A stretch of 32,722 nucleotides of DNA from the NCBI GenBank assembly GCA_017437285.1, contig JAFSBM010000024.1, positions 1 to 32,722 of the forward strand, written 5' to 3'. The DNA comes from Ruminococcus sp. (lineage in GTDB: Bacteria > Bacillota > Clostridia > Oscillospirales > Ruminococcaceae). The position numbers were made by a program, and so were the translations under genes. Shown here in pieces: positions 1,140-31,341 of this stretch (the first letter of the stretch is position 1; each line of letters begins with the position of its first letter). Below the pieces are notes generated by a model that saw nothing but the letters and a program-made list of their open reading frames with translations, was not told where the DNA came from and did no database searches.

Positions 1140-3472
1140 ATGAAGGAAGACAAACTAAAAGCACTGGCACTTGATAAACTTCACAACCAATTCGGCATAA
1201 AAGGCAACCTGTTCGGCTTTCAGGAGGAGTGCATAATGCGTATTGTCAAAGACCGGCTTGACACCTTCTGCATAAGAAAAACTGGTGCGGGCAAATCGCT
1301 GTGCTATCAGATTCCTGCTCTTATGTTCAAGCATTACACTGTTGTAATATCTCCCATAACTGCGTTGATTGACGACCAGGTTGAGTCGCTGAGAAAAAAA
1401 GGCATAGACGCACAAGCGTTTTACTTTGGAAATCCTGCTGATGAGGACAGAGAAAGCGTTGAGTCCTCTTTTATCAAAGGCGAAAACCAGACAAAGTTCA
1501 TTTACACCACTCCCGAAACCTTTCGCAGCAGGGCTGATTCGTTTTTCAGCAAGCTGAAAATCTCACTGCTTGTCATTGACGAGGCACATTGCGTTTCCGC
1601 ATGGGGCAACGATTTCCGTCCCTCGTACAGATGTATAAAAAGCGTTATTGATATGTTTGACCCTCGTAGGTATCATTTAGTAAAGCCATCAGATTGCTCG
1701 CTGCGCTACAAATTAAAACGCAAAGCAAAATTGGAGCGGAAGGCACGCCGTCCTGTAATTGCGGCATTTACTGCAACTGCTGACAAGCATATTTTCAATG
1801 ACACGGTAAAAATTCTTGGTATGAAAACTACCGAAAAAAATGTATCGGTGCTGTAAACCGAAAAAATGCTTTCGGCAAAAAATCAAATCCACGCAGGGTT
1901 GTTCTGTATAACGATGATGAGACGCGCTTCATAAGTGTATGCAAATTTCTTAAAGAACATGCAGGTGAAAAGTGTCTGGTTTTCTGTCGTAACAAGGATT
2001 TGATGAACCAGATATTTAACACGCTTAATAAAAGCAACACTGATGGCTTAAAGCTTGGCAGGTATTACGGCGGTACAAACAGCAATGAGAGGGCTGACAA
2101 AGAAACACTGAAAAAGTCAAACCAAAAAAGAATTGCTGCAAAAAAGAATATGCTCACAAGCTTTAAAGACGGCGATGTGAATTGCCTGATAGCAACAACC
2201 GCATTCGGAATGGGCGTTGACATCAGTGATATTCGGTACGTTATTAACGTCGGCTTTCCGCTTACGATGATGGATTATGTTCAGCAATGTGGCAGAGGCG
2301 GACGTGATAAAAAAGGCTGTGAATGCTTGATGTTTGCTTCTGCACTTGACATAGCAAAAACCAAAAGTATGATTTCACACAAATATCTGAAAATGTATCC
2401 TATGCAGCAGATTGTCAAGATAAGAAAGAAGGACTGTCAGAAATATGCTGAGGTCGTAGAATACTGCCTTGATAGCGCTGAATGTACTGACGAAAAGCTT
2501 CTTGCACAATTTCATAATGCACTTAATAACGTTAGAAATATGGAAATTGCTGAAGAACACTACCTTGAAAACAAGAAATTCCAGATGCTGATAAACGCTT
2601 CCGCTGAACTCAGGCGAAGGATACGCAGAAAGGAACTTAGCTATTATGAAGCTATTCTTGCAGATGGTGCATACTCGCTGTGGTATAACGGCGAAACAAG
2701 CTTTACTCCGAGAAGACTGATTTCCTGCGTTACGGGCAATGACGACCTTAACTTTCATGAGGATAAACGCAATCATGTTGTGGAGATAATTGACAAGCTT
2801 ATCAGCAAGGGTTATATCCCTGCTACACGCTGCACTGAAGGTGTCAGAACAAAATATTGCTTCAACGACTCGGCTATGAACTATCTTCCCGATGCTTTTC
2901 CTCTGCACGAACCTGCTTTGCAGAAAGGACATATCTGCAATATTCCTAACGGTGTACTTGGAATAATGAGCGATTTCTCCGACAACGTGCAGAACAAGAA
3001 AAAGCTTGACGAGGACGCTGAAGTTACAACTGTGAAATACTACCTGCTGAGGGAGCTCAACAGGATTTTTCTTTACTATCTTTTTCACGATATACGCAAT
3101 ATGGAACAAGGACTGTATTATTATGATGAGTATAGTGTTTACAAAAAAATAAGAGAAGAAAACTTTTTTAACATCACCTTAAGCAAAATAGTGTACATAC
3201 GATATGACCATAACGCAAAGGCAAACGAAAATACCGAAAAACGTGCGGGTATGTATGCTGAAACAGGCTTTTCACGCAGTATGGATCAGCTTCATAAGAT
3301 TGTGTGCCGTATGCTTGATAATCTCAAGAAAAACAACTATTTGTGGGATTACAAAATTATTTATTACACTGATAAAGAAGTTAAGGAATTACAGAAAAGA
3401 GGCTGGGAATTAGGCATGGAAACTGAGAATGGATATATTAAAGGCATTGGTTTTTTAAAATATTCAACTTAA
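1140..3472 (+). CDS. divergent RecQ-like DNA helicase, split by a -1 frameshift
   Basis: Superfamily 2 DNA helicase of RecQ type. The first frame (ATG 1140, GGGAG ribosome site at 1127-1131) has the Walker A TGAGKS at residues 48-53, DEAHC at 147-151 and motif III AAFTATA at about 208. It hits TAA at 1854. The second frame resumes the same protein with LVFCRNKD, TTAFGMGVDISDIRYVIN and motif VI QCGRGGRD. Joining at the A7 run 1834-1840 as if it had eight A's gives one protein of 777 residues. The C-terminal half (about 370 residues) has no RQC or HRDC domain that I recognise and lacks the usual four-cysteine zinc knuckle. A basic insertion of about 30 residues precedes motif III. It is either a pseudogene, a recoded gene or a sequencing artefact. 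RecQ-type assignment is firm; biological role is unknown, and phage, defence or mobile-element functions are all possible. Confidence 0.82.
1834..1841 (+). other. A7T run at the RecQ frameshift
   Basis: The upstream frame reads GAA AAA AAT GTA here and stops four codons later. The downstream frame reads TGT ATC GGT GCT GTA AAC CGA. One extra A, or a -1 slip on A-AAA-AAT, joins them exactly. Confidence 0.7.
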
Positions 3473-7665: not shown

Positions 7666-7710
7666 AACACCGCTATGCTGTTTAATCGCAGCATAGCGGT
7701 GTTTTTTACT
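7666..7710 (+). terminator. terminator of integrase 1
   Basis: AACACCGCTATGCTG (7666-7680) pairs perfectly with CAGCATAGCGGTGTT (7689-7703), followed by TTTT. It lies just past the integrase stop codon. Confidence 0.85.
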
Positions 7711-7820
7711 CTCTTATAAATCAGTCAATCATCTGAATGAAGCCGACAGCGAGGAATAAGAAAAGCCGTGCTCGGATTTTTCCGAATACGGCGGTACATA
7801 TTGGACTGTGCGACAAATTG
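7704..7820. repeat. 117-bp dispersed repeat, copy A
   Basis: This stretch recurs at 16626-16742 in the same orientation with about nine mismatches and no gaps. On the minus strand it contains an imperfect hairpin, CCGTATTCGG with CCGAGCACGG, followed by CTTTTCTTATT, so it can act as a terminator for the AraC-type gene to its right. I do not recognise it as a known insertion sequence end. Confidence 0.8.
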
Positions 7821-7851
7821 GAATACTTGCCGACAATCGTTTCAGTCAGAA

Positions 7852-9074: not shown

Positions 9075-11369
9075 TTACAGCACAGAGTTTTCAGCCTCGA
9101 TAGCCTGCTTTTTTCTCTTACGTTCAGATTTATTGTCATACAGCTTGCCGTCAGCTTTATTCACAGCTTCGGTAAAGTCATACAGATTTTCACAGTTACA
9201 CTCACAGAACCCCATAGACATATCAATTGTATATGGCTTGTTCGCGTTATGATTCAGATTTACTATATAGCTGTGCTTTCTATCAAGAATGCTTTCAACG
9301 CTTTCAGATTCCTTTTTGAGAATGCAAGCCGCAAATTCATCACCGCCCATTCGTCCGACGATGCCACTATCACCAAATATACTTTTCATGCAGAATGCAA
9401 GATTCTTTATTGAGAAGTCACCTTCTGAATGACCATATTGATCATTTACATATTTTAGATTATCCATATCAGCATAGCAGACAATAAATCTTTTATGTTT
9501 GTTTTTTTCAATGAATGATTCTGCTGCTTTGTAAAAGCCTCGCCTGTTGTAAACCCCTGTCATTTCATCTGTTTCCGAAAGATTTGAAAGTGCTTTATTG
9601 GATATATGAAGTTTTTCATTTATCTTATCCTTTTCAGAAATAAGTCTTATCAGTTTAACTGCTGCACTAACCTGATATATAATAAGTTCCAGATCAGCAA
9701 AGAATTTATCATTATATGGTTCACAAATCAGCATACCGTATTGATATTCGCGTGAATATAGATCAGCAACAATGAAAGTGTGACGCTCATCAGAGGATAT
9801 ATATTTATTTTTAAACATATATTCCGACGAGACATTTCGTTCAGAATAAGGAATCATATTAAATTCCATATTTTTTTGATATGACATAAAGCGCCAGTTC
9901 ACGTTAGACGGAAATTCCCCGTTGCTTCGATATTCTGAAGGTTCATCCAGAAGGAAAAGATAACTTGATTTAATATTAAGGCAGAAGAATTTGTTCATCA
10001 TCTGAGCATAGTTCATTTCCATATTTTCATTGAACATCAAAGTATCTCTTGTAAAAAGATTTGATAGATGTGTGTGATCTTTATGTTCGTCTTCAAGCTT
10101 ATTGAAATCAGATATCATTCTGTTAGCAAATTTTGTAATTGTATATTTAAAAATCTTATTGATAATCTCATTGTTTTCACAAGGTGCATTTTTGATTAAC
10201 CACTCGCGACATCCATCTGCTGTTTCAATTATTCTGGGAACAATACCTGCTTCATATTTGTCATATGCAAGAAATTCTTCTATTTGATTTGTAATATATT
10301 TGAGATCATCAGCTGACGCACTGCTGTCAATGATTCTTTTACGTAATTCGGATATCATTTTCAGGCAAAAGCATTTAAGACTGTATTCTTTTTCTGCAGG
10401 AACATTGCTCATATAAACATATTTCACCAATTTTTCAGCTATGGAAACATCATTTCCGCTGAACACATTCTCTATTTTGTTAAGATATAGTCTTTCTGAC
10501 GAACAGGACGCACGCGGGATAAACTCTGTTCTGCATAAATTATCCGCATCGTTCTGACCGTTCAGTTTGTTTATTACTTTTTCCACAGACCTATAACCTA
10601 ATGCAAATGCATCAGCTTTTACAGAAGCAAGAGGGGGATCCAGCTTTGCGGCAAAAGGGCTGTCATCAAAACCAACAAGCATAATATCTCTGCCTATAAT
10701 TTTATTTCTTTTGCGCAAAATGTCATAGAACACCACAGCCATATCATCATTGGCACATATAACTGCATCACATTCGGGATTTCTGTCAAGCAGCAATTCG
10801 GCTTCATCAACACAAAATTCCGATATATCGCTTTCTATGACCATATTATCATTGAATTCATAACCGTTTGCAGCAAGAGCAGCTTTATATGCTTCATAGC
10901 GTTCTCTGCACTCAAAATTGATAAGATTTCCAATCATCATACAGATGTGTTTTCTGTTTTGCTTATTTATTAAATAATCCACAGCTTGTGTAATTCCTGA
11001 TGCGTTATCGTAAATCAGATAATCGTATCCTTTGATTTTTGATGCAACATTAAGCAGCGGAGTGACACTAAGATAATCCAGTACCTCTTTTTTTCGCATA
11101 TCATCACTTATGTAAGCAATAGTGCCTGTGCAAACAATCAGATAATCAAGCTTTGCCTTGGCTGCATAGTCCATAAGGATATTGTACTGATATTCAAACT
11201 TCATATCAAGAGAAGTGTTATCATAATCGACATCAAGATATTTCATAGGAAAAATAAATAAATTTGCATCAAGTGCCTCAGCTGCCGCAATAGCACCTTT
11301 GGAAACTCTGTTGCTGAATGAATCTATTATATTTGCTACTAAAATACCAATATTATAGCGTTTTGTCAT
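9075..11369 (-). CDS. diguanylate cyclase with LacI-type ligand-binding domain
   Basis: The 764-residue protein begins MTKRYNIGILV with an AGGTGAT ribosome site. Residues about 1-300 form a periplasmic-binding-protein-like fold of LacI/GalR type (IGILVANIIDSFSNRV, CDAVICANDDMAV, IMLVGFDDSPFA), but no DNA-binding helix-turn-helix and no signal peptide precede it, so it should sense a ligand in the cytoplasm. Residues 320-590 are mostly helical with a possible GAF-like part. A GGDEF domain follows (MTGVYNRRGFY; YADMDNLKYVND; GGDEF at 675-679), expected to make cyclic di-GMP. The inhibitory RxxD site is absent. It lies downstream of a LacI regulator and a sugar importer, so a sugar-to-c-di-GMP link is likely but inferred. 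Confidence 0.9.
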   Translation of the reverse strand: MTKRYNIGILVANIIDSFSNRVSKGAIAAAEALDANLFIFPMKYLDVDYDNTSLDMKFEYQYNILMDYAAKAKLDYLIVCTGTIAYISDDMRKKEVLDYLSVTPLLNVASKIKGYDYLIYDNASGITQAVDYLINKQNRKHICMMIGNLINFECRERYEAYKAALAANGYEFNDNMVIESDISEFCVDEAELLLDRNPECDAVICANDDMAVVFYDILRKRNKIIGRDIMLVGFDDSPFAAKLDPPLASVKADAFALGYRSVEKVINKLNGQNDADNLCRTEFIPRASCSSERLYLNKIENVFSGNDVSIAEKLVKYVYMSNVPAEKEYSLKCFCLKMISELRKRIIDSSASADDLKYITNQIEEFLAYDKYEAGIVPRIIETADGCREWLIKNAPCENNEIINKIFKYTITKFANRMISDFNKLEDEHKDHTHLSNLFTRDTLMFNENMEMNYAQMMNKFFCLNIKSSYLFLLDEPSEYRSNGEFPSNVNWRFMSYQKNMEFNMIPYSERNVSSEYMFKNKYISSDERHTFIVADLYSREYQYGMLICEPYNDKFFADLELIIYQVSAAVKLIRLISEKDKINEKLHISNKALSNLSETDEMTGVYNRRGFYKAAESFIEKNKHKRFIVCYADMDNLKYVNDQYGHSEGDFSIKNLAFCMKSIFGDSGIVGRMGGDEFAACILKKESESVESILDRKHSYIVNLNHNANKPYTIDMSMGFCECNCENLYDFTEAVNKADGKLYDNKSERKRKKQAIEAENSVL

Positions 11370-16463: not shown

Positions 16464-16625
16464 ATTATAAATCAATGTATAAAAATGTTTAACCATTTTC
16501 TTTCTGTAGTCCGCTATTGTTAGATTTGAAGAATGTTTTTCCCATTCTTCATTGATTGATTTTCATTAAGCGGCGTACCATTTTTTCGAAATCAGGGTCA
16601 TTTTCAAATCGCACCATAGCGTTGG

Positions 16626-16742
16626 TTTTACTCTCTTATAAATCAGGCAATCAACTGAATGAAGCCGACAGTGAGGAATAAGAAAAGCCGTACTCGGATT
16701 TTTCTGAATAAGGCAGTATATATTGGACTGTTCGACAAATTG
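16626..16742. repeat. 117-bp dispersed repeat, copy B
   Basis: It matches 7704-7820 at an offset of exactly 8922 bp, about 92% identical without gaps. On the minus strand it ends the transcript of the hydrolase gene to its right and contains the same imperfect hairpin followed by CTTTTCTTATT. Confidence 0.8.
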
Positions 16743-16806
16743 TAATTTATCTGTTAAAGCGAATTCCAATTTTCTATTCCTTATAAATTGGATTGATCAT
16801 TACAAC

Positions 16807-17892
16807 TTATTCCTCTATTCTATCAAGAAAATCTCTGATAATATCTGCCACATCTTCCGGACGCTGGTCGTAAATGCAGTGGATTCCCGGCAGCAGCACC
16901 AGCTCGCAATTCCCCATCTTATCAAGATATGGCTGCAGCTCGGTATCACGGAGTTTTTGAAGATAGACCATATCATACCCTGATTCCGGAAACCTTGGTT
17001 GTTTCCTTCCCACGAATTCACATTCCTGCTTATCCCACGCTAGCATTTCATCTATTTCTTCTCTGGTCTGAAATCCCCAGCTTGAACAAATATAAACCTT
17101 TGGAACATCATTTGGCTTAATCTCATGATATGCAGTATTGCAGATTTCATTCATATGCTCATCTTCGTAGGAAAAAGCATAATTAAATGTATTGTGCAGA
17201 TTCAATGCTTCAGAATACTTTCGCTGTTCATCCGAATAATTCATACCGGGAATTACACTCTTTAACAGAAATGACTTACCAAGTCTTACCAGTCCTATCT
17301 GATTTGCAGCAATCGCAAACCGATTCTCAATGGCACTGCCATTTTCCAAAGCAATATCAGGATTATCGCCGAGTTGTGTTCCGGCAATAAAAACGACACC
17401 CTCAATCTCTTCCGGATACTGACTTACCCAATATGTCGCATAAGCACCCCCTAATGAATGCGGAAGCAGAATATACGGCCCTTCAATTCCGGCATTTTTC
17501 AGTGCTGTACGATAGTCATTTACAACGCGCTCTAATGTCCGCGGCTCCTTTGTATCATCGCTGAGTCCATAGCCTGCCCGATCGACAATTACGATTCGAT
17601 TCTCTTCAGTAAAATCGCCCATAAGGCGTTCCATTCTGACACTGAAATCAAATACGCCCAGACCTGATAATCCTACAAATGTATGCTTGCCTTTCTTGTT
17701 TCCGAAATCATATACATTCAGTGAATAGTCTCCAATTGAAACAGGATTATAATACCCTGCTTCGGTTAACATCTGCTTTTCTTTTGATAACAGAATTCTA
17801 TGTACTATAAATGTAATTGCCAGAAATAAAATAAAAATACAAGTTATTATCACAAGTGCTTTTTTTACTCTTTTTGACTTTTTAGATTTCAT
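16807..17892 (-). CDS. membrane-anchored alpha/beta hydrolase
   Basis: The 361-residue protein starts at ATG 17892, eight bases after GGAGG, in preference to the ORF's outer start at 17940. A basic N-terminus and a single membrane segment (about 11-31, ALVIITCIFILFLAITFIV) anchor it with the enzyme domain outside. The fold shows VDRAGYGLSD, the nucleophile elbow PHSLGGA with Ser146 and a C-terminal histidine in LLPGIHCIYDQRPEDV (His338). This is an esterase, lipase or acyltransferase-like serine hydrolase; the substrate is unknown. It is a single-gene unit. Confidence 0.88.
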   Translation of the reverse strand: MKSKKSKRVKKALVIITCIFILFLAITFIVHRILLSKEKQMLTEAGYYNPVSIGDYSLNVYDFGNKKGKHTFVGLSGLGVFDFSVRMERLMGDFTEENRIVIVDRAGYGLSDDTKEPRTLERVVNDYRTALKNAGIEGPYILLPHSLGGAYATYWVSQYPEEIEGVVFIAGTQLGDNPDIALENGSAIENRFAIAANQIGLVRLGKSFLLKSVIPGMNYSDEQRKYSEALNLHNTFNYAFSYEDEHMNEICNTAYHEIKPNDVPKVYICSSWGFQTREEIDEMLAWDKQECEFVGRKQPRFPESGYDMVYLQKLRDTELQPYLDKMGNCELVLLPGIHCIYDQRPEDVADIIRDFLDRIEE

Positions 17893-18007
17893 CGATTCAT
17901 CCTCCAAATTCACGCAAAGAATCTTCTTTATGTTTTTCAACTCATCATACTGTTCCCCTGCAAATTCTTATTTTGGGATCTGTCCGATTTTTTACATTAT
18001 ACCACAT

Positions 18008-19577: not shown

Positions 19578-19600
19578 GGTTGACGACCTATCGTCAATTT

Positions 19601-19645
19601 TGGCAGGGGCAGTAAGATTCGAACTCACGACACGCGGTTTTGGAG
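19601..19645 (-). other. tRNA-Trp 3' half: attachment site (att) of the right-hand element
   Basis: Read on the minus strand, this 45-bp segment begins in the anticodon loop (CTCCAAA, anticodon CCA) and runs through the 3' anticodon arm, variable loop, T-arm with TTCGAAT and acceptor end TGCCCCTGCCA. The 5' half of the tRNA is missing: unrelated sequence replaces it at 19646. Tyrosine integrases often use tRNA 3' halves as attachment sites and leave such a fragment at one element end. An integrase gene lies 519 bp away, and the tRNA's own terminator remains on the far side. The complete tRNA should be at the other end, outside the window. Confidence 0.75.
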
Positions 19646-19795
19646 CTGTTATTGTTTTGAGTTGGAAGATTTTACATCGTAAAATATCGTTTCAAAAAGT
19701 GCTGAAAAATGGCTTAAATGCGTGGTTTGCTCGTTTGTATCTTTTTATATCGTTTCATATCTTTTGTATCAAAAAGTATCGTTTTTTGCTCAACT

Positions 19796-20164: not shown

Positions 20165-21520
20165 TTAGTCCAGCGGAAGTATTGATTGTATAATCTCCGC
20201 TGATATTGCGTCTGCTGTTGCTATTGCGTGAGCATATACCTTGCTCGTTGTTGCCGAAGTGCTATGTCCCAGCCTTTTGGCTGTTGTGGTAATTGGAACA
20301 CCGTTTAAAATCATTATTGAAGCGTTTGTATGCCTTAATCCGTGAATGGATATATACGGAAGGTTATTGTCTTGAACAAAATAATGAAACCACGATGTTA
20401 CTGTTCCGGGGTTTATAGGCTTACCGTTCCAAGCAGTAAATACTTTACCGCTGTTTATCCATTTGTCACCGAGTTTAACAGCTTCTCTGTCCTGCCATCT
20501 TCTATATTCCCCAAGCTTGTTTATCAAATCACTGCTGACTTTTATAACACGCTTTGATGAGTATGTTTTTGTACTTGACTCAAATACACCTCTATCAGAA
20601 AGATACAGCAAGGATTTGTTAATGTCAATGGTACAATTCTCAAAATCAATGTCATTCCAATCAAGTCCGCAGCACTCTCCCCTTCTCATTCCCGTATGCA
20701 ATAACAGCATTATTATCATATCAAAGGGATGTTCTGCCTTTTCTTTTACTGTCTTAATCAGAAGCTCTGCCTGCTCATCATCAAGATAATTCGCTTCTTT
20801 TGCTTCTACTTTTGGCGGCTTCATTCTCTGACAGGGGTTGCTCTGAATTACCTCGTCATATACCGCAGAGTGCATTATAGCTGAAATAAGCCTGAAATGG
20901 TGCAGGATTGTTCTTGACGAAAGCGTTATTTCCTCCGCAGTAAAAAGCTTGTTGACAGGCATATCAAAGTATTCAGCGAATTTTTCAGCAGTTTTCTTGC
21001 TTACGTTGTTCCCTGCTCTTATTACATCAATGGTAGTTGTAGATATGCCTGTGTGTTTCGCAATATCGGGGCGAGTTTCCGATTTGCTCAACCGTTCAGC
21101 TTCAGCATTTGGAGTATATTTCGTATCATCACGCTTTTCCTCACGCAAATCATCAAAGAATGTTCGCAGATGATAAGGTTGTATCTGCCCTATTTTCAAA
21201 TGTCCGAGTGCTGGCAATATCCTTCTTAACATCAATTCATACCTTTTGTATGTAGTAGGCTGAATTTCGTTTTTAGCCTTGACACGCCAAAATTCATCTA
21301 CATATTCAACGAATTTCATATTCGGGTCATACTCAAGACCTCTGGAGCATTGCATTTCAAATTCACTGATTTTCTTTTTCAGCTCTTTTTCAATCTGCCT
21401 TTTCGTCATACCCTGTTCAGGTATCCAAGTCATATACTTGTTAATTCTCTTACCGTTAATGTCTGTGCCGCAGTAACAACGAATGTCATATCTGCCCTCA
21501 CGTTCTGTGTATGATGCCAT
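20165..21520 (-). CDS. tyrosine integrase 2 with embedded XRE-like HTH
   Basis: The 451-residue recombinase starts at ATG 21520 behind GAAAGGTGG. It aligns with integrase 1 without visible gaps up to the end: catalytic R279 (TGMRRGE), K318, H393-x-x-R396 (HGLRH), H419 (LGHST) and Y429 (KVYAH). The same XRE-like helix-turn-helix lies at residues 148-196 (RPDIAKHTGISTTTIDVIRAG then MPVNKLF). The tRNA-Trp fragment and paired repeats sit just beyond its 3' end, and an excisionase-like gene precedes it, the standard order excisionase-integrase-att. It should catalyse integration and excision of the element extending to the right. Confidence 0.93.
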   Translation of the reverse strand: MASYTEREGRYDIRCYCGTDINGKRINKYMTWIPEQGMTKRQIEKELKKKISEFEMQCSRGLEYDPNMKFVEYVDEFWRVKAKNEIQPTTYKRYELMLRRILPALGHLKIGQIQPYHLRTFFDDLREEKRDDTKYTPNAEAERLSKSETRPDIAKHTGISTTTIDVIRAGNNVSKKTAEKFAEYFDMPVNKLFTAEEITLSSRTILHHFRLISAIMHSAVYDEVIQSNPCQRMKPPKVEAKEANYLDDEQAELLIKTVKEKAEHPFDMIIMLLLHTGMRRGECCGLDWNDIDFENCTIDINKSLLYLSDRGVFESSTKTYSSKRVIKVSSDLINKLGEYRRWQDREAVKLGDKWINSGKVFTAWNGKPINPGTVTSWFHYFVQDNNLPYISIHGLRHTNASIMILNGVPITTTAKRLGHSTSATTSKVYAHAIATADAISAEIIQSILPLD

Positions 21521-21975: not shown

Positions 21976-22041
21976 ATCCAAATTTGTCACTTGGATATTT
22001 TATTCTATTGTCAAGATACTGCCGAGGGGTAATATTTACCC
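21976..22041. promoter_or_regulatory. candidate operators upstream of the excisionase-like gene
   Basis: Two inverted repeats occur: ATCCAA (21976-21981) with TTGGAT (21991-21996), and GGGTAA (22027-22032) with TTACCC (22036-22041). A TTGACA box lies between them on the minus strand without a clear -10 at normal spacing, so this looks like a regulated promoter. Confidence 0.4.
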
Positions 22042-22156
22042 TTCTACTATATAACGTACAGCTTTTCTATTATTTTACGACACTTGAAATAAAGTTTGTA
22101 TCATTACACAAATTCTAATATTATTTTTATACATATTTTATATAAAAGGATTGGTT

Positions 22157-22560
22157 TTAAATCAAATTCATATATTCCAAATTCAGCTTTATTTTCACTA
22201 ACGCACGTTCAATATATGTACTTACGGTGGTCAGGTTTACACCCATTGCATCGGCTGCCTGTTTCAAAGTCATACCCTCATAGAATACATATATAACTGC
22301 TTCTCTCTGTCTTGCAGACAGCTTTGTTCTGATAATATTCCTGATAGCTTCTCTCATTTCCTTGTTTTCGTATTCTGTTTCATAGCTGGGGACAGAAACA
22401 TTAGCATATACACTCATCATCTCATCGCTATCAAAGAAAACCGTGTGAGCTTCATCACGCTTTCTTCTGCGATACGCATTTACGTTCATTCTGTTGATTG
22501 CTCTTGCAAGCTCACCTTTAACCTCTACTCGATTTTTTTAAAGTAATAGTATCTTTTCAT
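22157..22560 (-). CDS. small sigma-70-like factor, frameshifted at an A7 run
   Basis: From ATG 22560, eight bases after AGGAG, the frame reads MKRYYYFKK and soon stops. The shifted frame continues RVEVKGELARAINRMNVNAYRRRKRDEAH and ends with a sigma region 4 helix-turn-helix (KLSARQREAVIYVFYEGMTLKQAADAMGVNLTTVSTYIERALVKI). One extra A in the T7/A7 run at 22533-22539 gives a single 134-residue protein matching the MKxYYYI...VEV opening of small sigma factors of clostridial integrative elements. An annotation limited to 22157-22489 would miss its N-terminus. It probably controls element transcription; that is inference. Confidence 0.7.
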
Positions 22561-22684
22561 AAAAATTCTCCTATCTGGCATTGTGCCGTAAATTATTATA
22601 AAAAATATAAAACCGCAACTTGTCTTTCAAGCTACGGTAATGCACATAATCTTCATTTCACTTTTATCACAACCCTTTCTGTTA

Positions 22685-22758: not shown

Positions 22759-25700
22759 TTACTGTATCAAGCTCAACACGCTCTGCGGGAGAGAATTTGC
22801 CTGTGCGAGCATAGCCTGTGCGGCGTTATTGAGTATCTGATTTTTCGTGAACTCCATCATATATACCGCCATATCGGTATCCCTGATTTTGGACTCTGCC
22901 GAAATCAGATTTTCACGGGTCACGTTAAGGTTGTCAATCTTGTGCTCCAATCTGTTCTGATATGCGCCGATATCCGCACGCTGGCGTGACAGCTTGTTTA
23001 CCGCCTCGCCGATTTTGTCGATTGCGGCATTGGCGCTCGCCTGTGTTGAAATGTTCACGCTGTCCTTGTCAACGCCGAGAATTTTGGTGTTCATTCTGCC
23101 GATGTCCATTGCGAAGGTGTCCTTTGAGCGTCCGCCTACCTGCATAATCCAGATATTTTCGCCGTCCTCAAAGTCACCGTCCTTGTCATCGTCATCATCA
23201 GCCTTTGCAGGTGCGTCAACAGGCTGATTTGCACCGCCGACAGTACCGTCGATATTGCTGTCGGGACGGCTCTTGATTTCGCCGTTGTTTGTAAGCGTAC
23301 CGCCCGTGCTGTCGATATCGCCGCTGTTGTCAATCGTGCCGCCGTCTGCGTTGGTGATTTCACCGCTGTTGGTAATCGTGCCGCTGTTGTCGATAGTACC
23401 GCCGTTGTTGTTTGTCACGCTACCTGCGTTTTCAACTGTACCGCCGCTCTTGTTGGTAATATCACCGCTGTTGCTGATTGAGCCGCTGTCGGTGTTGGTA
23501 AGCGTACCGCTGTTTGTTACTGTGCCGCCGTTGTTGTTTGTCACGTTACCTGCGTTTTCAACTGTGCCGCCGCTGTTGTTGGTAATATCACCGCTGTTGC
23601 TGATTGAGCCAGTGCCATTGTTGGTAATCGTACCGCCGTTATTGTTGGTGATATCGCCGCTGTTGTCAATCGTACCGCCGTTTGCGTTGATGATTTCACC
23701 GTCATTGTTGACAGCACCACTGTTGTTGATTGTGCCGCCGTTATAAATTTCACCGTCATTGTTGACAGCACCACTACTATTATTGTTTATATCACCCGCA
23801 CTATCGATTGCACCGCCGCTGTTATTGGTAATATCACCACTGTTGCTGATTGTACCGCTACTGGAAATTAAACCGTCATTATTGATTGAACCGCTGTTGT
23901 TGTTGGTAATGTCACTGCCAATTATATTCACGATTGTGCCGCCGCTGTTATTGGTAATATCACCGCTGTTGTCAATCGTACCGCCGTTTGCGTTGGTGAT
24001 TTTACCGCCGCTGTTGTTGGTAATATCACCATCATTATCAATTTCACCGCTGTTGTTGAGTACGCCGCTGTTTTCAACAGTACCGTCATTGTCAAGCTTA
24101 TTCGTAACATTCAGCGTGCCGCTGACAATATTGAGCTTACTGCCGTTTTCAACGGTAACATTATCCACAGTGCTTGTATTTGTGACAGTCAGATTAACAG
24201 TTGAATTGCCCTTTACGGTAAAATTCTCACCTGTTACGCCGTCAAATGTGATATTTGTCGTGCCGCCGCTTGAAACGGTAATATCCTCATCGGTTGTACC
24301 CGTAAAGGTGTAATCGCCTGTATACACATAGGTCTTATCGCCGATTGTGTAGCCGTTGTCTGTGATTGTTACGGGACCGTCAACGTCGTTGAGGTTGATT
24401 TGTCCGTTGCCCTGCAATTGAATCGGATACTGAGTGCCGTTGATAGTTGCTTTCCAAGTGTCAATTCCGCTTGTGTCGGAGATAAGCTGTTCAATAGTGA
24501 GGTCGCTGATAATATCGTCGTTTATGTCCTTGACATTGGCAGTAATTACGGCTACTCCGTTTGTTCCTGTGGAGAATGTTCCGCCTGAGCCGTTCTTACC
24601 GTCACCGATAGCTACCGCATCTTCACCGCCTGTTGCATTTACAGTACCGCCGCTGATTTCGATTTTACCACCGTCACCCGTATTACCGCCGCCGATACCT
24701 GCCGCCCAATCACCGCCTGTTGCCGTTACATTACCACCGCCGATTACGATATTACCGCCGTCGCCACCAACACCGCCGCCGATTCCTGAGCCTTCAAATC
24801 CACCTGTTGCTGTTACTGTACCGCCTGATATATCAATATTTCCACCAGATGAGCCACTGTCACCACCGCCGATACCTGCAGCGTAAGCTCCGCCTGTTGC
24901 TGTTACTGTACCACCATTAATGTCAATATCTCCGCCTGAACCTTCATAGCCACCGCCGATACCTGCCGCATAGTTACCGGCTGTTGCTGTTACTTCACCG
25001 CTTTTAATCTCAATAGTTCCGCCTGAATCATGGTCACTACCGCCGATACCTGCACCGAACTCTCCGCCTGTTGCATCAAGTGAGCCACTTCCGTCAATAA
25101 CCAGCTTTTCACCCTCACCGACCTGCAAGCCTGCACAATCATAACCACTCTTTAAAGTATTTTCGCCCTCAAGAGTAAGATTAACGGTTGAGTTTTCGCC
25201 AACTTCAAATGCACACGCATAGTCTGTATCGCTCACATCAATATTAACATTTTTAATAGTAACATTCGCAGTTATACCGTCGTCGATTTTGATTTTGTCG
25301 GTTGTGGCTGAGCCTGTGCCCTCGATTTTGATTGCTTCGTTTGTGAGAACGGTTAAAGTGCCTGTGTCTTCGTCATAGGTGTAGTCAGTTCCGTATGTGC
25401 CGCCTGTTACGGTGAAATCACCTGTTGAGGGTGCTGGGGCGGCAATCGGATACTGAACGCCGTTAATTGTTGCACTCCATACGTCAATACCGCTTGTGTC
25501 GGAGATAAGCTGTTCAATAGTTGGGTCGCTGATAATATTGTCGTCTGCGTCCTTGACATTGGCAGTAATTACGGCTGTTCCGTTTTCGGTAGTGGAGAAT
25601 GTTCCGCCTGAGCCGTTTTCACCGCCTGCGCCGATAGCCTCGGGGGAATTTCCGCTTGTTGCCGTACCGCCTGTTGCTGTAACATTACCACCCGATATTG

Positions 25701-28700
25701 TAACGTCACCGCCAGCCGCATTGTTACCGCCACCGATTCCTGCACCGCCTTGACCGCCAGTAGCCGAAACTGTACCACCATCAATATTTATCGTACCGCC
25801 AGTGTTTCCACCAGCGCCGCCACCGCCGCCGATACCTGCCGCCCATTCGCCGCCTGTTGCAGTTACTGTACCGCCATTAATGTCAACAGTTCCGCCGCCA
25901 CCGTCGTTACCACCGCCGATACCCGCACCGTCAGTTCCACCTGTTGCAGTTACTGTACCGCCGTTAATTTCAATAGTTCCGCCTGACCCATTAGGACCAC
26001 CGCCGATACCTGCACCACTGCTGCCGCCTGTTGCTGTTACTTCACCGCCATTAATTTCAATAGTTCCGCCTGAATCGTATATACTGCCGCCGATACCTGC
26101 ACCTGCTTCACCGCCTGTTGCATCAAGTGAACCATTTCCGTCTATAACAAGAGTTTCGCCCTCGCCGACCTGCAAGCCTGCACGGTGGGCACCACTCTTT
26201 AAAATATTTGTACCTTCAAGTGTGAGATTTACGGTTGAACCTTCACCTACTTCAAATGCGGCCGTACCGCCTGCACTGCTCACATCAATATTAACATTCT
26301 TAATAGTAACGTTAGCATTAGTTCCGTCATTTATTTTGATTTTGTCGGTTGTGGCTGAGCCTGTGCCTTCGATTGTGATTGCTCTGTCTGTGAGAACGGT
26401 TAAAGTGCCTATGTCTGCGTCATAGGTGTAGTCAGTTCCGTATGTGCCGCCTGTTACTGTGAATGAGCCTGTTGAGGGGGCTGGGGCGGCAATCGGATAC
26501 TGAACGCCGTTGATTGTTGCACTCCATACGTCAATACCGCTTGTGTCGGAGATAAGGTCAGCAATTTCGGTGTCATTGTCTGCGTTGCTTACAGTAATTT
26601 CGGCATTTCCGTTTTCGGTAGTGGAGAATGTACTGCCTGAGCCGTTCACACCGTCACCGATAGCTACCGCATTTTCACCGCCTGTTGCGGTTACCTTACC
26701 GCCGCTGATTTCGATATTTCCGCCTGAGCCGCCAGAAGTGCTAGTACCGCAACCGCCACCGATACCTGCACCGCCTCGACTGCCAGTAGCCGAAACTTTA
26801 CCGCCTGTGATTGTAGTATTACCGCCAGAACCGCCATAACCGCCACCGATACCTGCCGCTCTGACACCTGTTGCAGTTATAATACCTCCATCAATAATTA
26901 TAGTACCACTTGTTGCATTGGAACCATAGTCAGCTTCATATAAACGGAAGTTATTTCCGCCGATACCTGCCGCAGCAGTACCACCTGTTACATCAAGTGA
27001 GCCATCTCCGTTAATAATAAGAGTTTCACCCTCGCCGACCTGCAAGCCTGCACGATGGGCACCACTCTTTAAAATATTTGTACCTTCAAGTGTGAGATTT
27101 ACGGTCGAATTCTCGCCTACTTCAAATGCACACACACTACTTGTACCGCTTAAATCAATATTAACATTTTTAATAGTAACGTTCGCAGTTATACCGTCAT
27201 TGATTTTGATTTTGTCGGTTGTGGCATTGCCTGTGCCTTCGATTGTGATTGCTTCGTCTGTGAGAACAGTTAAAGTGCCTGTGTCTTCGTCATAGGTGTA
27301 GTCAGTTCCGTATGTGCCGCCTGTTACTGTGAATGAGCCTGTTGAGGGGGCAGACGGGGTAGGTAAACCATATATGGTTCCGTTGATAGTTGCACTCCAT
27401 ATACCAGCATCTTTTCCGCTTGTATCGGAGATAAGGTCAGCAATTTCGGTGTCACCGTCTGTGTTGCTTACATTAATTACCGCTGTTCCGTTTGTGCCTG
27501 TGGAGAATGTTCCGCCTGAGCCGTTCGCACCGTCACCGATAGCCACCGCATTTGAACCGCCTGTTGCAGTTACTTCACCGCCGCTAATATCAATAATTCC
27601 GCCTGAACCATTATAACCGCCGCCGATACCTGCAGCATAGCTACCGCCTGTTGCCGTTACAATGCCGCCATTGATATAGATGTTTTCACTTGAACCATTT
27701 CTGCCTCCACCGATTCCTGCAGCGGAACTTCCGCCTTTTGCTGTCACTGTACCGCCGTTAATCTCAATAGTTCCGCCTGAATCGTATATACTGCCGCCGA
27801 TTCCTGCTGCACCCCTGCCGCCTGTTGCATCAAGAGAGCCTGTGCTGTTTGCGGTAATAACAAGAGTTTCACCGTCTTGAACCTGCAAGCCTGCATATTC
27901 GCTCTTTAAAGTGTTTTTACCTTCAAGAGTGAGATTAACGGTTGAGTTTTCACCTACCTCAAATGCCACACCGCCTGTACTTCTCACATCAATATTAACA
28001 TTTTTAATAGTAACATTCGCAGTTATATTGTCAGCAATTTTGATTTTGTCGGTTGTGGCTGTGCCTGTGCCCTCGATTGTGATTGCTTTGTCTGTGAGAA
28101 CGGTTAAAGTGCCTGTGCTTTCGTCATAGGTGTAGTCAGTTCCGTATGTGCCGCCTGTTACGGTGAATGAGCCTGTTGAGGGGGCAATCGGATACTGAGT
28201 GCCATTAATTTTTGCACTCCACACGTCAATACCGCTTGTGTCGGAAATAAGGTCGGCAATTTCGGTATCACCGTCTGCGTTGCTTACATTGATTACCGCT
28301 GTTCCGTTTTCACCTGTGGAGAATGTACCGCCTGAACCGTTATAACCGTCACCGATAGCTACTGCATCTTCACCGCCTATCGCCTTTACTGTGCCACCGC
28401 TGATTACGATATTTCCACCTGAACCGCAGTAACCGCCGCCGATACCTGCCGCCATTTCGCCGCCTGTTGCTGTTACTTCACCGCCGTTAATCTCAATAGT
28501 TCCACTTGCCTTGCAGTCAACGCCGCCGATACCTGCCGCTAATCCACCGCCTGTTGCATCAAGAGAGCCGCTTCCGTCAATAACCAGCTTTTCACCCTCG
28601 CCGACCTGCAAGCCTGCACGGTAGGCACCACTCTTTAAGGTATTTTCACCTTCAAGAGTAAGGTTAACAGTTGAGTTTTCACCAACTTCAAATGCACACG

Positions 28701-30600
28701 CATCACTTGTACCGCTCACATCAATATTGACATTCTTGATAGTTACGTTTGCGGTTGTTCCGTCAGCGATTTTGATTTTGTCGGTTGTGGCATTGCCTGT
28801 GCCTTCGATTGTGAGGGCTGTTCCTGTCAATACGGTGAGAGTGCCTGTGTCTTCGTCATAGGTGTAGTCAGTTCCGTATGTGCCGCCTGTTACTGTGAAA
28901 TCGCCTGTTGAGGTGACAGATGGGGTCATATCTTCCGTAGGTGCAACGCCGTCGGCTGAAACTACACCGCCCGAGAGTACCGTTATATCGCTGGGATATT
29001 CGTTTTTAACAGCGGTATTGGTGCTGTCGAGAGCGAACAAATTCAGCGAAAGCGAAGCGTTGGAGTATGGGTCGCCGTTAAGCAGGTCGCCGCTGATAAG
29101 ACCGCCGCTGACAACGTTGGAAGTATATCCGTCATTGGGTGTGCTGTCGGTTGAGAAGTAACCCTGCAGTGCCATTATTTGAATAAAGCTTACAACATCG
29201 CCATCGTTTGCAAAGCCGTTTTCAAAATCGCTTGTGCTTGAATATTTTCCGCCTGAAATTTCGTTGATTACAGAGTCAAGGGAGCTACCGCTGATAATTT
29301 TACTCAACATAGTATTAAGACCGCTTAAAATGTCCGAAGCTGCCGCTGTTGAACTGCTGAGATTTGCGTCTGCTCCCGAGGCAAGGTAGCCCAGATACAT
29401 ACAAGCGAGGTAGCCTGTGCCGTACTGTGCTGTGGTATTGCTTTCCGAAGAAGTAAGCGGGTCGTTTGCCAAAGCGGTGCTTATTTCGGAAGTATCACTG
29501 TCGGGCGTAATACCCATACCGTGATGAACCCAGTTGCCGGGACCCGAAGCTGTCTGAGCCATACCCTCAGCAAACCACGCAGGGAACGAGTCGGTCTGTC
29601 CCGACGAGGAAAGTCCGAACATACCTGCGGTTGTTGCCTCAAACATAAATGCGTGAATCATTTCGTGGGCAATTGTGGATTCAAGGGCACTTCTGCCCTC
29701 CTCGGTTGAAAGGTCAACCGAATTCATATTTACGGAAAGGGTATATGTCATTGCTGTAGCATATACCTCGCCCGTTGTGTTGTTCTGATACGCTGTCGGG
29801 CTTGCACTGACATAGGCAAGGGTTGTGGAGCTGTCCGAATACAGATTAAGACCGATACCAATGCTTGAACCTGTCAGATAGTTGAAGGCTGTGTATTTGC
29901 TCATAATTGCCTGTACAGCCTGAGGAACAATCTGCGTTTCCAGCGTTTCAGCGGCTTCTGCCCAGCCTGTACCGCTTGTACTTGTGGCAGAGCCTGTCTG
30001 CGTCTGTGTTGTTTCAAAATTAAAGGTAGTTTCGGTGTAGATAATATTTTGCAGCTTTTCGGACTTCTGCGAAAGCACACTTTCAAGGGTAACGTTATTC
30101 TGCTGTGCAGAAGCATCAACAGCAGTGTATTTTTGCTGTTTTGTAACAGTGTTTCCGCTTGGAAGCTTGTATGTACCGCCTGTGCCGTCGAAAAGGTTCA
30201 TACCGTTGAAGTCGGTATGTTCGGCAATATGGTCTATTTCGTCCTGTATCTGCGTAAATTCAAGCTGTAAAGAAGCACGGTCAACGCCGTCATCATAGCT
30301 GCCGTTTGCCGCCTGATTAGCAAGCTCGTTCATACGCTGAAGCATAGAGTGTACTTCGTTCAAAGCTCCCTCTGCTGTCTGGACGAGGGACACAGCGTCG
30401 TGGCAGTTCTTCTCCGCCTGTGTAATACCGTTTATCATAGAACGCATTTTTTCGGACACAGCAAGACCTGCAGCATCGTCTGCGGAACGGTTTATGCGAT
30501 AACCCGAAGCCAGCTTTTCAAGGGTTTTCGCCGTCTTGGATTTGTTCACACCGAGTATTCTGTTTGCGTTCATAGCAGTTATGTTGTTCTGAATTTTCAC
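22759..30600 (-). CDS. giant flagellin with flagellinolysin protease and five beta-helix modules
   Basis: This 2613-residue protein starts at GTG 30600, eight bases after GGAGG. Residues 1-138 are a canonical flagellin N-terminal domain (MKIQNNITAMNANR, ADDAAGLAVSEKM, LQRMNELANQAANG). Residues about 140-545 match the flagellinolysin metalloprotease: HEMIH at 312-316 and WFAEGMA with Glu345, the zinc ligands and catalytic Glu of a gluzincin. Five modules follow from about 563, 808, 1085, 1376 and 1724 to 2061, each beginning TGxFTVTGGTYGTDYTYD and holding several GGTIEINGGTVTATGG/GIGGG units, likely right-handed beta-helix. An Asn/Ser/Gly repeat tract (about 2167-2446) and an Asp-rich linker lead to an intact flagellin C-terminal domain (about 2479-2613, ending LPQSVLSLIQ). 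It should be exported and built into filaments, with protease and adhesive modules facing outward. That is inference; no other flagellar gene is near. Confidence 0.95.
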   Translation of the reverse strand: MKIQNNITAMNANRILGVNKSKTAKTLEKLASGYRINRSADDAAGLAVSEKMRSMINGITQAEKNCHDAVSLVQTAEGALNEVHSMLQRMNELANQAANGSYDDGVDRASLQLEFTQIQDEIDHIAEHTDFNGMNLFDGTGGTYKLPSGNTVTKQQKYTAVDASAQQNNVTLESVLSQKSEKLQNIIYTETTFNFETTQTQTGSATSTSGTGWAEAAETLETQIVPQAVQAIMSKYTAFNYLTGSSIGIGLNLYSDSSTTLAYVSASPTAYQNNTTGEVYATAMTYTLSVNMNSVDLSTEEGRSALESTIAHEMIHAFMFEATTAGMFGLSSSGQTDSFPAWFAEGMAQTASGPGNWVHHGMGITPDSDTSEISTALANDPLTSSESNTTAQYGTGYLACMYLGYLASGADANLSSSTAAASDILSGLNTMLSKIISGSSLDSVINEISGGKYSSTSDFENGFANDGDVVSFIQIMALQGYFSTDSTPNDGYTSNVVSGGLISGDLLNGDPYSNASLSLNLFALDSTNTAVKNEYPSDITVLSGGVVSADGVAPTEDMTPSVTSTGDFTVTGGTYGTDYTYDEDTGTLTVLTGTALTIEGTGNATTDKIKIADGTTANVTIKNVNIDVSGTSDACAFEVGENSTVNLTLEGENTLKSGAYRAGLQVGEGEKLVIDGSGSLDATGGGLAAGIGGVDCKASGTIEINGGEVTATGGEMAAGIGGGYCGSGGNIVISGGTVKAIGGEDAVAIGDGYNGSGGTFSTGENGTAVINVSNADGDTEIADLISDTSGIDVWSAKINGTQYPIAPSTGSFTVTGGTYGTDYTYDESTGTLTVLTDKAITIEGTGTATTDKIKIADNITANVTIKNVNIDVRSTGGVAFEVGENSTVNLTLEGKNTLKSEYAGLQVQDGETLVITANSTGSLDATGGRGAAGIGGSIYDSGGTIEINGGTVTAKGGSSAAGIGGGRNGSSENIYINGGIVTATGGSYAAGIGGGYNGSGGIIDISGGEVTATGGSNAVAIGDGANGSGGTFSTGTNGTAVINVSNTDGDTEIADLISDTSGKDAGIWSATINGTIYGLPTPSAPSTGSFTVTGGTYGTDYTYDEDTGTLTVLTDEAITIEGTGNATTDKIKINDGITANVTIKNVNIDLSGTSSVCAFEVGENSTVNLTLEGTNILKSGAHRAGLQVGEGETLIINGDGSLDVTGGTAAAGIGGNNFRLYEADYGSNATSGTIIIDGGIITATGVRAAGIGGGYGGSGGNTTITGGKVSATGSRGGAGIGGGCGTSTSGGSGGNIEISGGKVTATGGENAVAIGDGVNGSGSTFSTTENGNAEITVSNADNDTEIADLISDTSGIDVWSATINGVQYPIAAPAPSTGSFTVTGGTYGTDYTYDADIGTLTVLTDRAITIEGTGSATTDKIKINDGTNANVTIKNVNIDVSSAGGTAAFEVGEGSTVNLTLEGTNILKSGAHRAGLQVGEGETLVIDGNGSLDATGGEAGAGIGGSIYDSGGTIEINGGEVTATGGSSGAGIGGGPNGSGGTIEINGGTVTATGGTDGAGIGGGNDGGGGTVDINGGTVTATGGEWAAGIGGGGGAGGNTGGTINIDGGTVSATGGQGGAGIGGGNNAAGGDVTISGGNVTATGGTATSGNSPEAIGAGGENGSGGTFSTTENGTAVITANVKDADDNIISDPTIEQLISDTSGIDVWSATINGVQYPIAAPAPSTGDFTVTGGTYGTDYTYDEDTGTLTVLTNEAIKIEGTGSATTDKIKIDDGITANVTIKNVNIDVSDTDYACAFEVGENSTVNLTLEGENTLKSGYDCAGLQVGEGEKLVIDGSGSLDATGGEFGAGIGGSDHDSGGTIEIKSGEVTATAGNYAAGIGGGYEGSGGDIDINGGTVTATGGAYAAGIGGGDSGSSGGNIDISGGTVTATGGFEGSGIGGGVGGDGGNIVIGGGNVTATGGDWAAGIGGGNTGDGGKIEISGGTVNATGGEDAVAIGDGKNGSGGTFSTGTNGVAVITANVKDINDDIISDLTIEQLISDTSGIDTWKATINGTQYPIQLQGNGQINLNDVDGPVTITDNGYTIGDKTYVYTGDYTFTGTTDEDITVSSGGTTNITFDGVTGENFTVKGNSTVNLTVTNTSTVDNVTVENGSKLNIVSGTLNVTNKLDNDGTVENSGVLNNSGEIDNDGDITNNSGGKITNANGGTIDNSGDITNNSGGTIVNIIGSDITNNNSGSINNDGLISSSGTISNSGDITNNSGGAIDSAGDINNNSSGAVNNDGEIYNGGTINNSGAVNNDGEIINANGGTIDNSGDITNNNGGTITNNGTGSISNSGDITNNSGGTVENAGNVTNNNGGTVTNSGTLTNTDSGSISNSGDITNKSGGTVENAGSVTNNNGGTIDNSGTITNSGEITNADGGTIDNSGDIDSTGGTLTNNGEIKSRPDSNIDGTVGGANQPVDAPAKADDDDDKDGDFEDGENIWIMQVGGRSKDTFAMDIGRMNTKILGVDKDSVNISTQASANAAIDKIGEAVNKLSRQRADIGAYQNRLEHKIDNLNVTRENLISAESKIRDTDMAVYMMEFTKNQILNNAAQAMLAQANSLPQSVLSLIQ
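23265..24102 (-). repeat. Asn/Ser/Gly repeat tract in the giant flagellin
   Basis: Roughly 280 residues of short irregular units such as NSGDITNNSGGTI and NNGGTVTNSGTL. NSGDITN recurs at least five times, and DNA words such as GGTAATATCACCGC repeat accordingly. Spacing of about 10-14 residues suits coils of a beta-helix stalk. Confidence 0.85.
24420..28914 (-). repeat. five tandem beta-helix modules in the giant flagellin
   Basis: Each module has TGxFTVTGGTYGTDYTYD, then TLTVLT, IEGTG-ATTDKIKI, VTIKNVNIDV, STVNLTLEG-N-LKSG, AGLQVGEGE, then several ATGG...GIGGG units, and closes with AVAIGDG, GTFST, DLISDTSGIDVW and INGTQYPI. Starts are near 28914, 28179, 27346, 26476 and 25430. The inner glycine-rich units number about three, four, four, six and six, so modules grew and shrank by unequal recombination. 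Confidence 0.9.
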
Positions 30601-30615
30601 TTACCGTTCCTCCTT

Positions 30616-30990
30616 TCAATCCCACAGACCGTCCTGCGTGAGAGTAATTTCAGCTTTGCAAATCGGACAGGGCACGTTATTTTCCACAGCCTCGGCATTC
30701 TCCGACGAGCATTTCGGACAATCGCCGATTATTTCGTGCTTTTCACCGTCAAGGGTGTAGCTTACAATCGGCAGGGCATAGATTTCCCCACAGTCCTTGC
30801 AGGCACAGATAATTCGGTTGATTATAACTCGCTTTGCACCGTTGGAAATCATTTCTTTCAGCAAAGCTTGTTTTTCCTCGGAAAGCTCCCTGCCAATTTT
30901 TTGGGGCATACAATCGTTTCGACCGCCGCCTGCAAAAAGTCTTTTACTGTAGCCGCAATTTTTACATTCTGCCCTATATACAACGCCCAT
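30616..30990 (-). CDS. zinc-ribbon protein co-transcribed with the giant flagellin
   Basis: The 124-residue protein starts at ATG 30990 behind AGAGGTG. It has four CxxC pairs: C9-C12, C64-C67, C91-C94 and C108-C111, able to bind two zinc ions as rubredoxin-like ribbons. A basic central helix (ELSEEKQALLKEMISNGAKRVI) separates them. The giant flagellin start codon is 15 bp after its stop, so the two are one operon. It may help the flagellin or its protease fold or stay inactive before export, or it may be regulatory; the sequence does not decide. I know no named family for it. Confidence 0.8.
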   Translation of the reverse strand: MGVVYRAECKNCGYSKRLFAGGGRNDCMPQKIGRELSEEKQALLKEMISNGAKRVIINRIICACKDCGEIYALPIVSYTLDGEKHEIIGDCPKCSSENAEAVENNVPCPICKAEITLTQDGLWD

Positions 30991-31005: not shown

Positions 31006-31095
31006 TCATATCAAAAACGCCTTCAAAGCCTGTTTGGAGTAAACAGACTTTAAAGGCATAAAATATTTATTTACATTCAAGCCGAAAAAGAGCAT
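31006..31095 (-). CDS. putative 29-residue leader peptide
   Basis: An ATG at 31095, five bases after AGGA, opens MLFFGLNVNKYFMPLK and reads SVYSKQALKAFLI to TGA at 31006. The frame runs through the leader terminator and ends right before the ribosome site of the zinc-ribbon gene, 15 nt upstream of its ATG. A translating ribosome would melt the terminator and could couple to the next start. The frame may also be chance, because translation of the repeat-like hairpin can recur in genomes. Confidence 0.4.
   Translation of the reverse strand: MLFFGLNVNKYFMPLKSVYSKQALKAFLI
31012..31057 (-). terminator. leader terminator upstream of the zinc-ribbon/giant flagellin operon
   Basis: On the minus strand GCCTTTAAAGTCTGTTT (31057-31041) pairs along all 17 bases, two as wobbles, with AAACAGGCTTTGAAGGC (31035-31019) around a five-base loop; GTTTTTGA follows. 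It lies between the promoter and the first gene, the position of a transcription attenuator. Confidence 0.8.
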
Positions 31096-31102
31096 AACTA
31101 TC

Positions 31103-31121
31103 CTGTCTGTCTGTCTGTCTG
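31103..31121 (-). repeat. (CAGA)4 CAG tetranucleotide repeat at the transcription start
   Basis: CAGACAGACAGACAGACAG begins one base after the TATAAT box, so the start point near 31116 lies inside it. Short tandem repeats at such places can vary by slippage and switch expression. Confidence 0.8.
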
Positions 31122-31122
31122 A

Positions 31123-31151
31123 ATTATAGGACGGTTTCATCGGCTTGTCAA
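31123..31151 (-). promoter_or_regulatory. consensus sigma-A promoter of the giant flagellin operon
   Basis: TTGACA (31151-31146) and TATAAT (31128-31123), 17 bp apart, a perfect match. GCCGATGA at 31143-31136, inside the spacer, resembles the -10 of flagellar sigma-28 promoters (GCCGATAA), but no matching TAAA box is found 15 bp upstream. Confidence 0.8.
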
Positions 31152-31341
31152 CTCCTTTTTGTGAATTTTTGGATAATACCAGAGTGGCATTACTATACAT
31201 CATATATATCGGCAGTTTTGTTTAAAACTTTAGCTTTTTGAGGGGATTTGTAAATATTTTTTGAATTATTCAGACAGATAACAGCATCATTTATCATATA
31301 TGAAAACAACAGAAACTCATTGTTTTATGATAATTTAAAAG

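Follow-up and report, generated by a model that had tools for sequence, protein, structure and literature searches.

A giant flagellin gene with a flagellinolysin-like protease region and beta-helix modules on a contig assigned to Ruminococcus

How much can be inserted into one flagellin, and in which bacterium would such a protein be used? This question is raised by a DNA stretch of 32,722 nucleotides assigned to Ruminococcus sp. (GenBank assembly GCA_017437285.1, contig JAFSBM010000024.1), hereafter the window, which is the whole of contig C195 of that assembly (G000; 4.13 Mb in 235 contigs, 99.91% complete and 4% contaminated). Its minus strand carries, at 22759..30600, a gene for a predicted giant proteolytic flagellin of 2613 amino acids with a GTG start. 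We favour, with moderate confidence, a reading in which this gene belongs to a sigma-D-controlled operon of two genes and encodes a surface subunit, probably a minority one, of a filament that would be proteolytic and possibly adhesive; the host would be flagellated, and the contig was probably misbinned.

Reading frame and domain order of the flagellin

The initial annotation of the window had described one open frame with flagellin termini, a HEMIH...WFAEG metalloprotease, five repeat modules and an Asn/Ser/Gly tract, and the frame and the profile searches agree with it. The frame is free of internal stops and opens, at its GTG, with the flagellin-like sequence M/V-KIQNNITAMNANR...; the calculated mass of the product is 259 kDa and its pI 4.05. 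Pfam places Flagellin_N at 30181..30594 (minus strand, as for all features of this gene; amino acids 3-140; E 8.8e-40, 136.4 bits against a cut-off of 26.6) and Flagellin_C at 22765..23022 (amino acids 2527-2612; E 7e-26, 90.8 bits against a cut-off of 23). With both domains above their cut-offs at opposite ends, the protein can be counted as a flagellin, and its 2613 residues place it well beyond the 1000 above which flagellins are called giant. Beta_helix_3 (PF18889) also matched above its curated cut-off (E 1.2e-40). The order along the protein is Flagellin_N, flagellinolysin-type region, Beta_helix_3 and Flagellin_C. As judged from sequence, this architecture is beyond chance: the four profiles match in the order expected, and a relative of 1933 codons, assembled independently, shows that order too. 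One further Pfam row, PH_SLA1 (amino acids 586-645; 28.9 bits, cut-off 27), was taken as an artefact of the repeats; no single stretch passes alone.

The putative metalloprotease region (29167..30042; amino acids 187-478) was matched by the flagellinolysin family NF033876 of NCBIfam with E 1.2e-36. The best match reaches 127 bits, and the curated equivalog cut-off is 205 bits; the protein was therefore filed as flagellinolysin-like and not as an equivalog, and its protease region is, by this profile, a divergent flagellinolysin-like branch. The zinc-binding motif HEMIH lies at 29653..29667 (amino acids 312-316). The putative third zinc ligand is Glu345 in WFAEGMA (29566..29568), followed by Ala348, by comparison with Glu262 and Ala265 of FliA(H) in the available text of PMC5595980. 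In an alignment of 16 sequences (the window and 15 named loci), HEMIH, the downstream Glu and the subsequent Ala are invariant in all 16. Thus the features of a flagellinolysin, namely HExxH, a downstream Glu, an Ala basement residue and a place inside the flagellin variable region, are all present. An AlphaFold model of the region, compared by VIA-align, is gluzincin-like but middling, Foldseek by itself gave no significant match, and a sequence-profile search for PDB relatives at E 1 found none. The assignment to a flagellinolysin-type metalloprotease region is supported, the zinc motif being conserved, the family profile staying under its cut-off and the gluzincin-like model being middling.

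That the protease is inactive and the protein serves the flagellar surface only as a thickening or adhesive sheath seems improbable to us. According to the available text of PMC6248924, giant flagellins give thick filaments in two marine gamma-proteobacteria, and the putative third-ligand Glu follows the first His at a distance of 33 residues here against 29 in FliA(H) (PMC5595980, available text), both of which would suit such a sheath. On the other hand, the 16/16 conservation of HEMIH, Glu and the following Ala is what one expects of an active site kept by selection.

Behind the protease follow five predicted beta-helix modules. Modules 1 (28180..28914; amino acids 563-807) and 2 (27346..28179; 808-1085) are covered by structure models as well as by the profile and sequence comparison, on which modules 3 (26476..27345; 1086-1375), 4 (25429..26475; 1376-1724) and 5 with its following linker (24301..25428; 1725-2100) were assigned. 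They measure 245-376 residues, start at about residues 563, 808, 1086, 1376 and 1725, and share 72-82% protein identity in pairwise comparison. Motifs of the AGIGGG type recur mostly every 28-33 residues, matching the 87-base period detected by TRF. The beta-helix proposed in the initial annotation is borne out, as a right-handed one, by the Beta_helix_3 profile together with the solenoid model of modules 1 and 2. A tract rich in Asn, Gly, Ser and Thr (23221..24003; amino acids 2200-2460), with 56 Asn, 51 Gly, 33 Ser and 33 Thr in 261 residues, lies between the modules and Flagellin_C.

The modules belong to the same repeat family as other Beta_helix_3 surface proteins, and the available text of a survey of fibrillar adhesins names Beta_helix_3 as a stalk domain (PMC8286594). 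No known adhesive domain was found beside the stalk in the Pfam scan at E 0.001, so the protein does not class as a fibrillar adhesin; adhesion by the stalk is possible. A separate protein of 1475 amino acids (L064:1003-5430), encoded next but one to a related flagellin in genome G348, is unlike the window protein in being secreted-looking and not a flagellin; AGIGGG repeats were read in it by eye, and it suggests a source of the beta-helix modules.

Such separate, secreted-looking beta-helix proteins, as well as the fragmentation (235 contigs) and 4% contamination of the assembly, might hint at an artefact in which repeats were expanded or a flagellin was chimerically joined to a surface protein. 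However, the modules are only 72-82% identical and the longest exact direct repeat found within the gene is about 64 bp, so that short reads could assemble the gene uniquely. Moreover, the frame is unbroken and the same domain order occurs in independent assemblies. We consider an artefact very improbable indeed; of what the initial annotation had named as refuting, misassembled repeats are thus unlikely and no break of the frame was found.

Relatives in Clostridia and the linked zinc-ribbon gene

Homologues with the same domain order were sought, as had been proposed, and were found. The family was scanned with the flagellinolysin profile in 396 genomes with up to four candidates scored per genome, a limit that makes absences softer than they look. 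At E 0.001, 111 genomes gave matches, most of the listed rows being flagellin-end matches, and the NF033876 cut-off was passed in one genome. Proteins were examined from five genomes besides G000 (G433, G348, G233, G154 and G312). The G348 protein (1239 amino acids) has the architecture of the window flagellin; those of G433 and G233 are short flagellinolysin-like flagellins. In G154, a secreted-looking protein of 546 codons (L012), judged by eye not to be a flagellin, carries an HELVH motif and a flagellinolysin-profile match; the protease domain therefore exists outside flagellins too.

A further scan with one genome per species yielded 17 loci, of which L082 (502 codons, without an evident flagellin start) was dropped and 16 (L066-L081) were kept. 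These relatives come from 16 named Clostridia genomes, seven of them with record titles naming deer or goat gut samples; L078, which has the protease in a frame of 1094 codons, comes from the cultured strain [Clostridium] polysaccharolyticum DSM 1801, and L080 is the same contig as that of G348 (G348:C117), with the same protein. The 14 complete relatives span 1094-1933 codons from stop to stop, L071 and L075 being truncated by contig ends, and the window flagellin with 2613 codons is the longest of all copies found. The nearest relative, L066 from a water-deer caecum assembly, combines Flagellin_N, the protease, three modules, an Asn/Ser/Gly tract and Flagellin_C in 1933 codons. A flagellin with protease and beta-helix was first thought to stand alone and to be undescribed; with these shorter versions of the same order in other Clostridia, it does not.

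At least three AGIGGG-type motifs were counted in 13 of the 16 relatives; L078 has two, and the truncated L071 and L075 have none. Pfam searches of seven relatives found Flagellin_N in all seven and Flagellin_C in six, the seventh being cut by a contig end. Beta_helix_3 reached its cut-off in two, stayed below it in two, and was unmatched in three (L078, L079 and the cut L075). On these motif counts and profile matches, the beta-helix is therefore clear in close relatives of the window protein and less evident in the more distant relatives. A tree with 19 rows joins the window to L066 (support 100/99), next to further rows from Oscillospiraceae; a long branch divides the 17 rows of this group (two of them truncated at contig ends) from two short flagellinolysins.

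Flagellin_N matches number at least three in 14 of 17 genomes scanned and one each in G000, G519 and G523; some of the matches counted are fragments, lie below the cut-off or are perhaps hook-associated proteins. Further flagellin frames of 1068-1288 codons (G528:C46, G520:C49 and G515:C124) were observed in genomes that also carry proteolytic ones.

At 15 bp upstream of the flagellin start lies a gene for a zinc-ribbon protein (30616..30990, minus strand; 124 amino acids with four CxxC pairs). The gene stands beside the flagellin in 14 of the 16 named loci; at L071 and L078 it was searched for and not found. Twelve of the 14 linked loci have it immediately upstream in the same orientation; in the other two, L067 and L080, it is found beyond the other end of the flagellin on the opposite strand. 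Across 15 aligned sequences, the MG start, the four CxxC pairs and the GxWD end are all invariant. With ten candidates scored per genome, a zinc-ribbon profile matched 15 of the 396 family genomes at E 0.001, with more than 38 bits only in G000 (153) and G348 (141), the same two family genomes in which the flagellinolysin-profile scan found this type of flagellin. The window protein matched no family of Pfam or NCBIfam at E 0.001; relaxed thresholds brought up generic zinc ribbons only. We conclude that it is probably dedicated to the giant flagellin; that it acts as a chaperone, protease guard or regulator is a guess. Other neighbours, namely the integrase, the sigma-like gene and a gene for 170 amino acids, were rejected as members of the system, as they have no homologues in the relatives' loci at E 0.01.

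Upstream of the two genes on the same strand lies a sigma-D-like promoter, TAAA-N15-GCCGATA(T), at 31207..31232 plus one base. Its form, TAAA-N15-GCCGATAT, fits the sigma-D consensus. Whereas 0.08 occurrences would be expected, the window has two, the other one lying within the gene but on its opposite strand; one of 100 shuffled sequences had two. L066, L067 and L080 have the pattern ahead of the operon or the flagellin as well, so that four of 17 loci, the window included, carry it. The leader, likewise on the minus strand, holds in addition a perfect sigma-70-type consensus, TTGACA-17-TATAAT (31123..31151), and, between the promoters and the zinc-ribbon gene, a terminator-like hairpin of 19 pairs with a T-run (31017..31059), which from its sequence is a possible attenuator. 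A terminator-like site at 22612..22638 (minus strand) is found about 120 bp past the flagellin stop. Four tandem CTGT units (31103-31118) immediately follow the -10 box of this sigma-70-type promoter; the copy number of such repeats can change, and they might act as an expression switch. An Rfam scan of the window gave no family at the gathering threshold and one chance-level match in the leader.

Organism of origin of the contig

Apart from its single Flagellin_N match, assembly G000 contains no second flagellin, and neither FlhA nor the rod/hook domain Flg_bbr_C was found in it (other flagellar genes, such as SigD, FliF, FliS, MotA and CheA, were not sought). The initial annotation had counted a host without flagellar export as evidence against its own proposal, and G000 as assembled is such a host, lacking FlhA and Flg_bbr_C; the relatives' genomes have FlhA. 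We read the missing families first as a doubt about the contig's organism of origin. Since searches for three families revealed no flagellar machinery in G000, a flagellated relative within the Oscillospiraceae is the probable source of the contig, which would then have been misbinned. FlhA is present in all eight other family genomes checked, which were picked for Flagellin_N or flagellinolysin-profile matches and include G154, and in all 16 genomes of the named relatives, the closest included; one genome is shared between the sets, giving 23 of 23. In addition, the block at 9.1-16.4 kb, with sugar-ABC and LacI-GGDEF genes, is conserved in the same order with 77-86% DNA identity in G209, a genome of another genus that has flagellin-end matches. 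Among 125 genomes of the host genus, matches of several hundred bases were obtained in G047 only, at 65-66% identity. Both DNA searches scored two candidate places per genome, which again makes absences softer than they look.

Not all of the evidence points towards misbinning. Several members of the genus share the gene at 16807-17973 at 86% identity, though another genus does so equally, and for the stretch at 22008-22641 the best match among those listed is contig C11 of G000 itself (80%). Another explanation would be that the contig is native to a non-flagellated host, which received the flagellin operon on an integrative element and keeps it as an orphan, either silent or in some use that involves no flagellum. 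Indeed, a tyrosine integrase (20165-21520) and a sigma-like gene (22157-22489) adjoin the flagellin, C11 carries a similar integrase module whose 45-bp core is identical, and the 86% identical flanking gene would suit a native contig. Furthermore, Flagellin_N was detected in only four of 100 sampled genomes of the genus, G000 among them, while 96 were without. However, an intact frame, zinc motif and sigma-D-like promoter are unexpected in an unused gene, C11 could be foreign too, and the equal similarity of the 86% gene in another genus, the closeness of the sugar-ABC/LacI-GGDEF block to G209 and the presence of FlhA in all 23 other genomes do not favour an orphan. We regard the orphan copy as unlikely, and misbinning as appreciably the likelier of the two.

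Sequence composition does not decide the origin: in tetranucleotide signature, the correlation with the native core is 0.82 for a contig stretch from another genus and 0.78 for the window. A plasmid origin was rejected, as window positions 1-22700, the flagellin part being excluded, have no near match in a plasmid collection, and so was a phage origin, the scan of viral contigs giving just two weak, short protease matches. No tRNA was found in the window.

Several further features of the contig were observed. Beside the tyrosine integrase, 45-50 bases of 19596-19646 are 96-100% identical in several family genomes and 45/45 in C11; this stretch probably serves as attachment site for an integrative element of wide distribution. 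The AraC-like/LacI-GGDEF/sugar-ABC block is flanked by two direct repeats, each about 141 bp long and 90% identical (7684-7824 and 16607-16746); no further copy was found in G000, and related stretches occur in G043 and G083. Within this block, which is conserved in other genera, 9075-11369 (minus strand) encodes a protein of 764 amino acids joining a LacI-type sugar-binding domain to GGDEF. A helicase split over two plus-strand frames, 1131-1856 with the DEAD part and 2000-3472 with the Helicase_C part, looks broken or frameshifted.

Proposed function and relation to known flagellins

For the misbinned contig of a flagellated host that we favour, the following mechanism can be proposed. The operon would be transcribed by sigma-D, with the zinc-ribbon partner translated first, and the giant flagellin would be exported unfolded via the flagellar type III apparatus. 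Its conserved ends would polymerise into the filament core and leave the insert exposed on the surface: a zinc metalloprotease of gluzincin type directly after the N-terminal core, five right-handed beta-helix modules that may form a stalk or a glycan-binding array, and the flexible Asn/Ser/Gly tract, which would bring the chain back to the C-terminal core. Built in beside ordinary flagellins, most likely as a minority, the subunit would display protease and stalk along the filament. Export, filament assembly, mixing with ordinary flagellin, proteolysis, adhesion and the role of the partner are what we infer. It is a more tentative idea that the branch is a separate lineage of enzymatic flagellins of gut and related Clostridia, with protease and stalk, which needs its own cytoplasmic zinc-ribbon guard to keep the flagellin unfolded and inactive until export. 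The flagella of these bacteria would then act as motile organelles that bear protease and adhesin and digest mucus, feed or the proteins of competitors.

Flagellins with proteolytic activity and flagellins of giant size are both already known. Flagellinolysin or FlaMP proteins, for instance FliA(H) of C. haemolyticum (PMC5595980) and the 565-residue HgrFlaMP of Hylemonella gracilis (PMC7643111), share with the window protein, as far as the available texts describe them, the flagellin ends, an HExxH metallopeptidase (in the window protein putatively of gluzincin type) in the variable region, and a Glu with Ala three residues on. Proteolysis by filaments is reported in the available text of PMC5595980 for C. 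haemolyticum, a species outside the window branch. Unlike these proteins, the window flagellin has 2613 residues, beta-helix modules and a tract after the protease, a match to NF033876 below its cut-off, and a linked zinc-ribbon gene. The giant flagellins of the marine gamma-proteobacteria Bermanella and Oleibacter likewise exceed 1000 residues and carry a very large surface insert, but the available text of PMC6248924 mentions neither a protease nor a beta-helix for them. The same text counts the Firmicute Eubacterium plexicaudatum among the giant flagellins, and its protein may belong to the window class.

A giant flagellin of 1310 amino acids in G312 (L065:3806-7738) resembles the window protein in its flagellin ends (by eye), an HEVMH protease-like region and AGIGGG motifs. 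It differs in its protease sequence and its GC content of 58%, and no zinc-ribbon neighbour was found within 9.7 kb; it is possibly an independent or very divergent case. Among the literature matches listed (titles and abstract openings, with subscription papers and preprints largely uncovered), none described a flagellin with both protease and beta-helix, and likewise none had a counterpart to the 2613-residue size or the linked zinc-ribbon gene. Judged from these matches, the combination with a beta-helix array, the size and the linked gene appear to be new.

Our data indicate how much folded cargo flagellin genes can gain, and a subunit of 259 kDa would need passage through the flagellar export channel. 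The branch of enzymatic flagellins tied to a linked partner gene is cleanly testable by removal or co-expression of that gene, and one named cultured strain, now belonging to the branch, is available for experiments. If the proposed reading is true, some gut bacteria would have flagella studded with protease sites and repeat stalks in large number.
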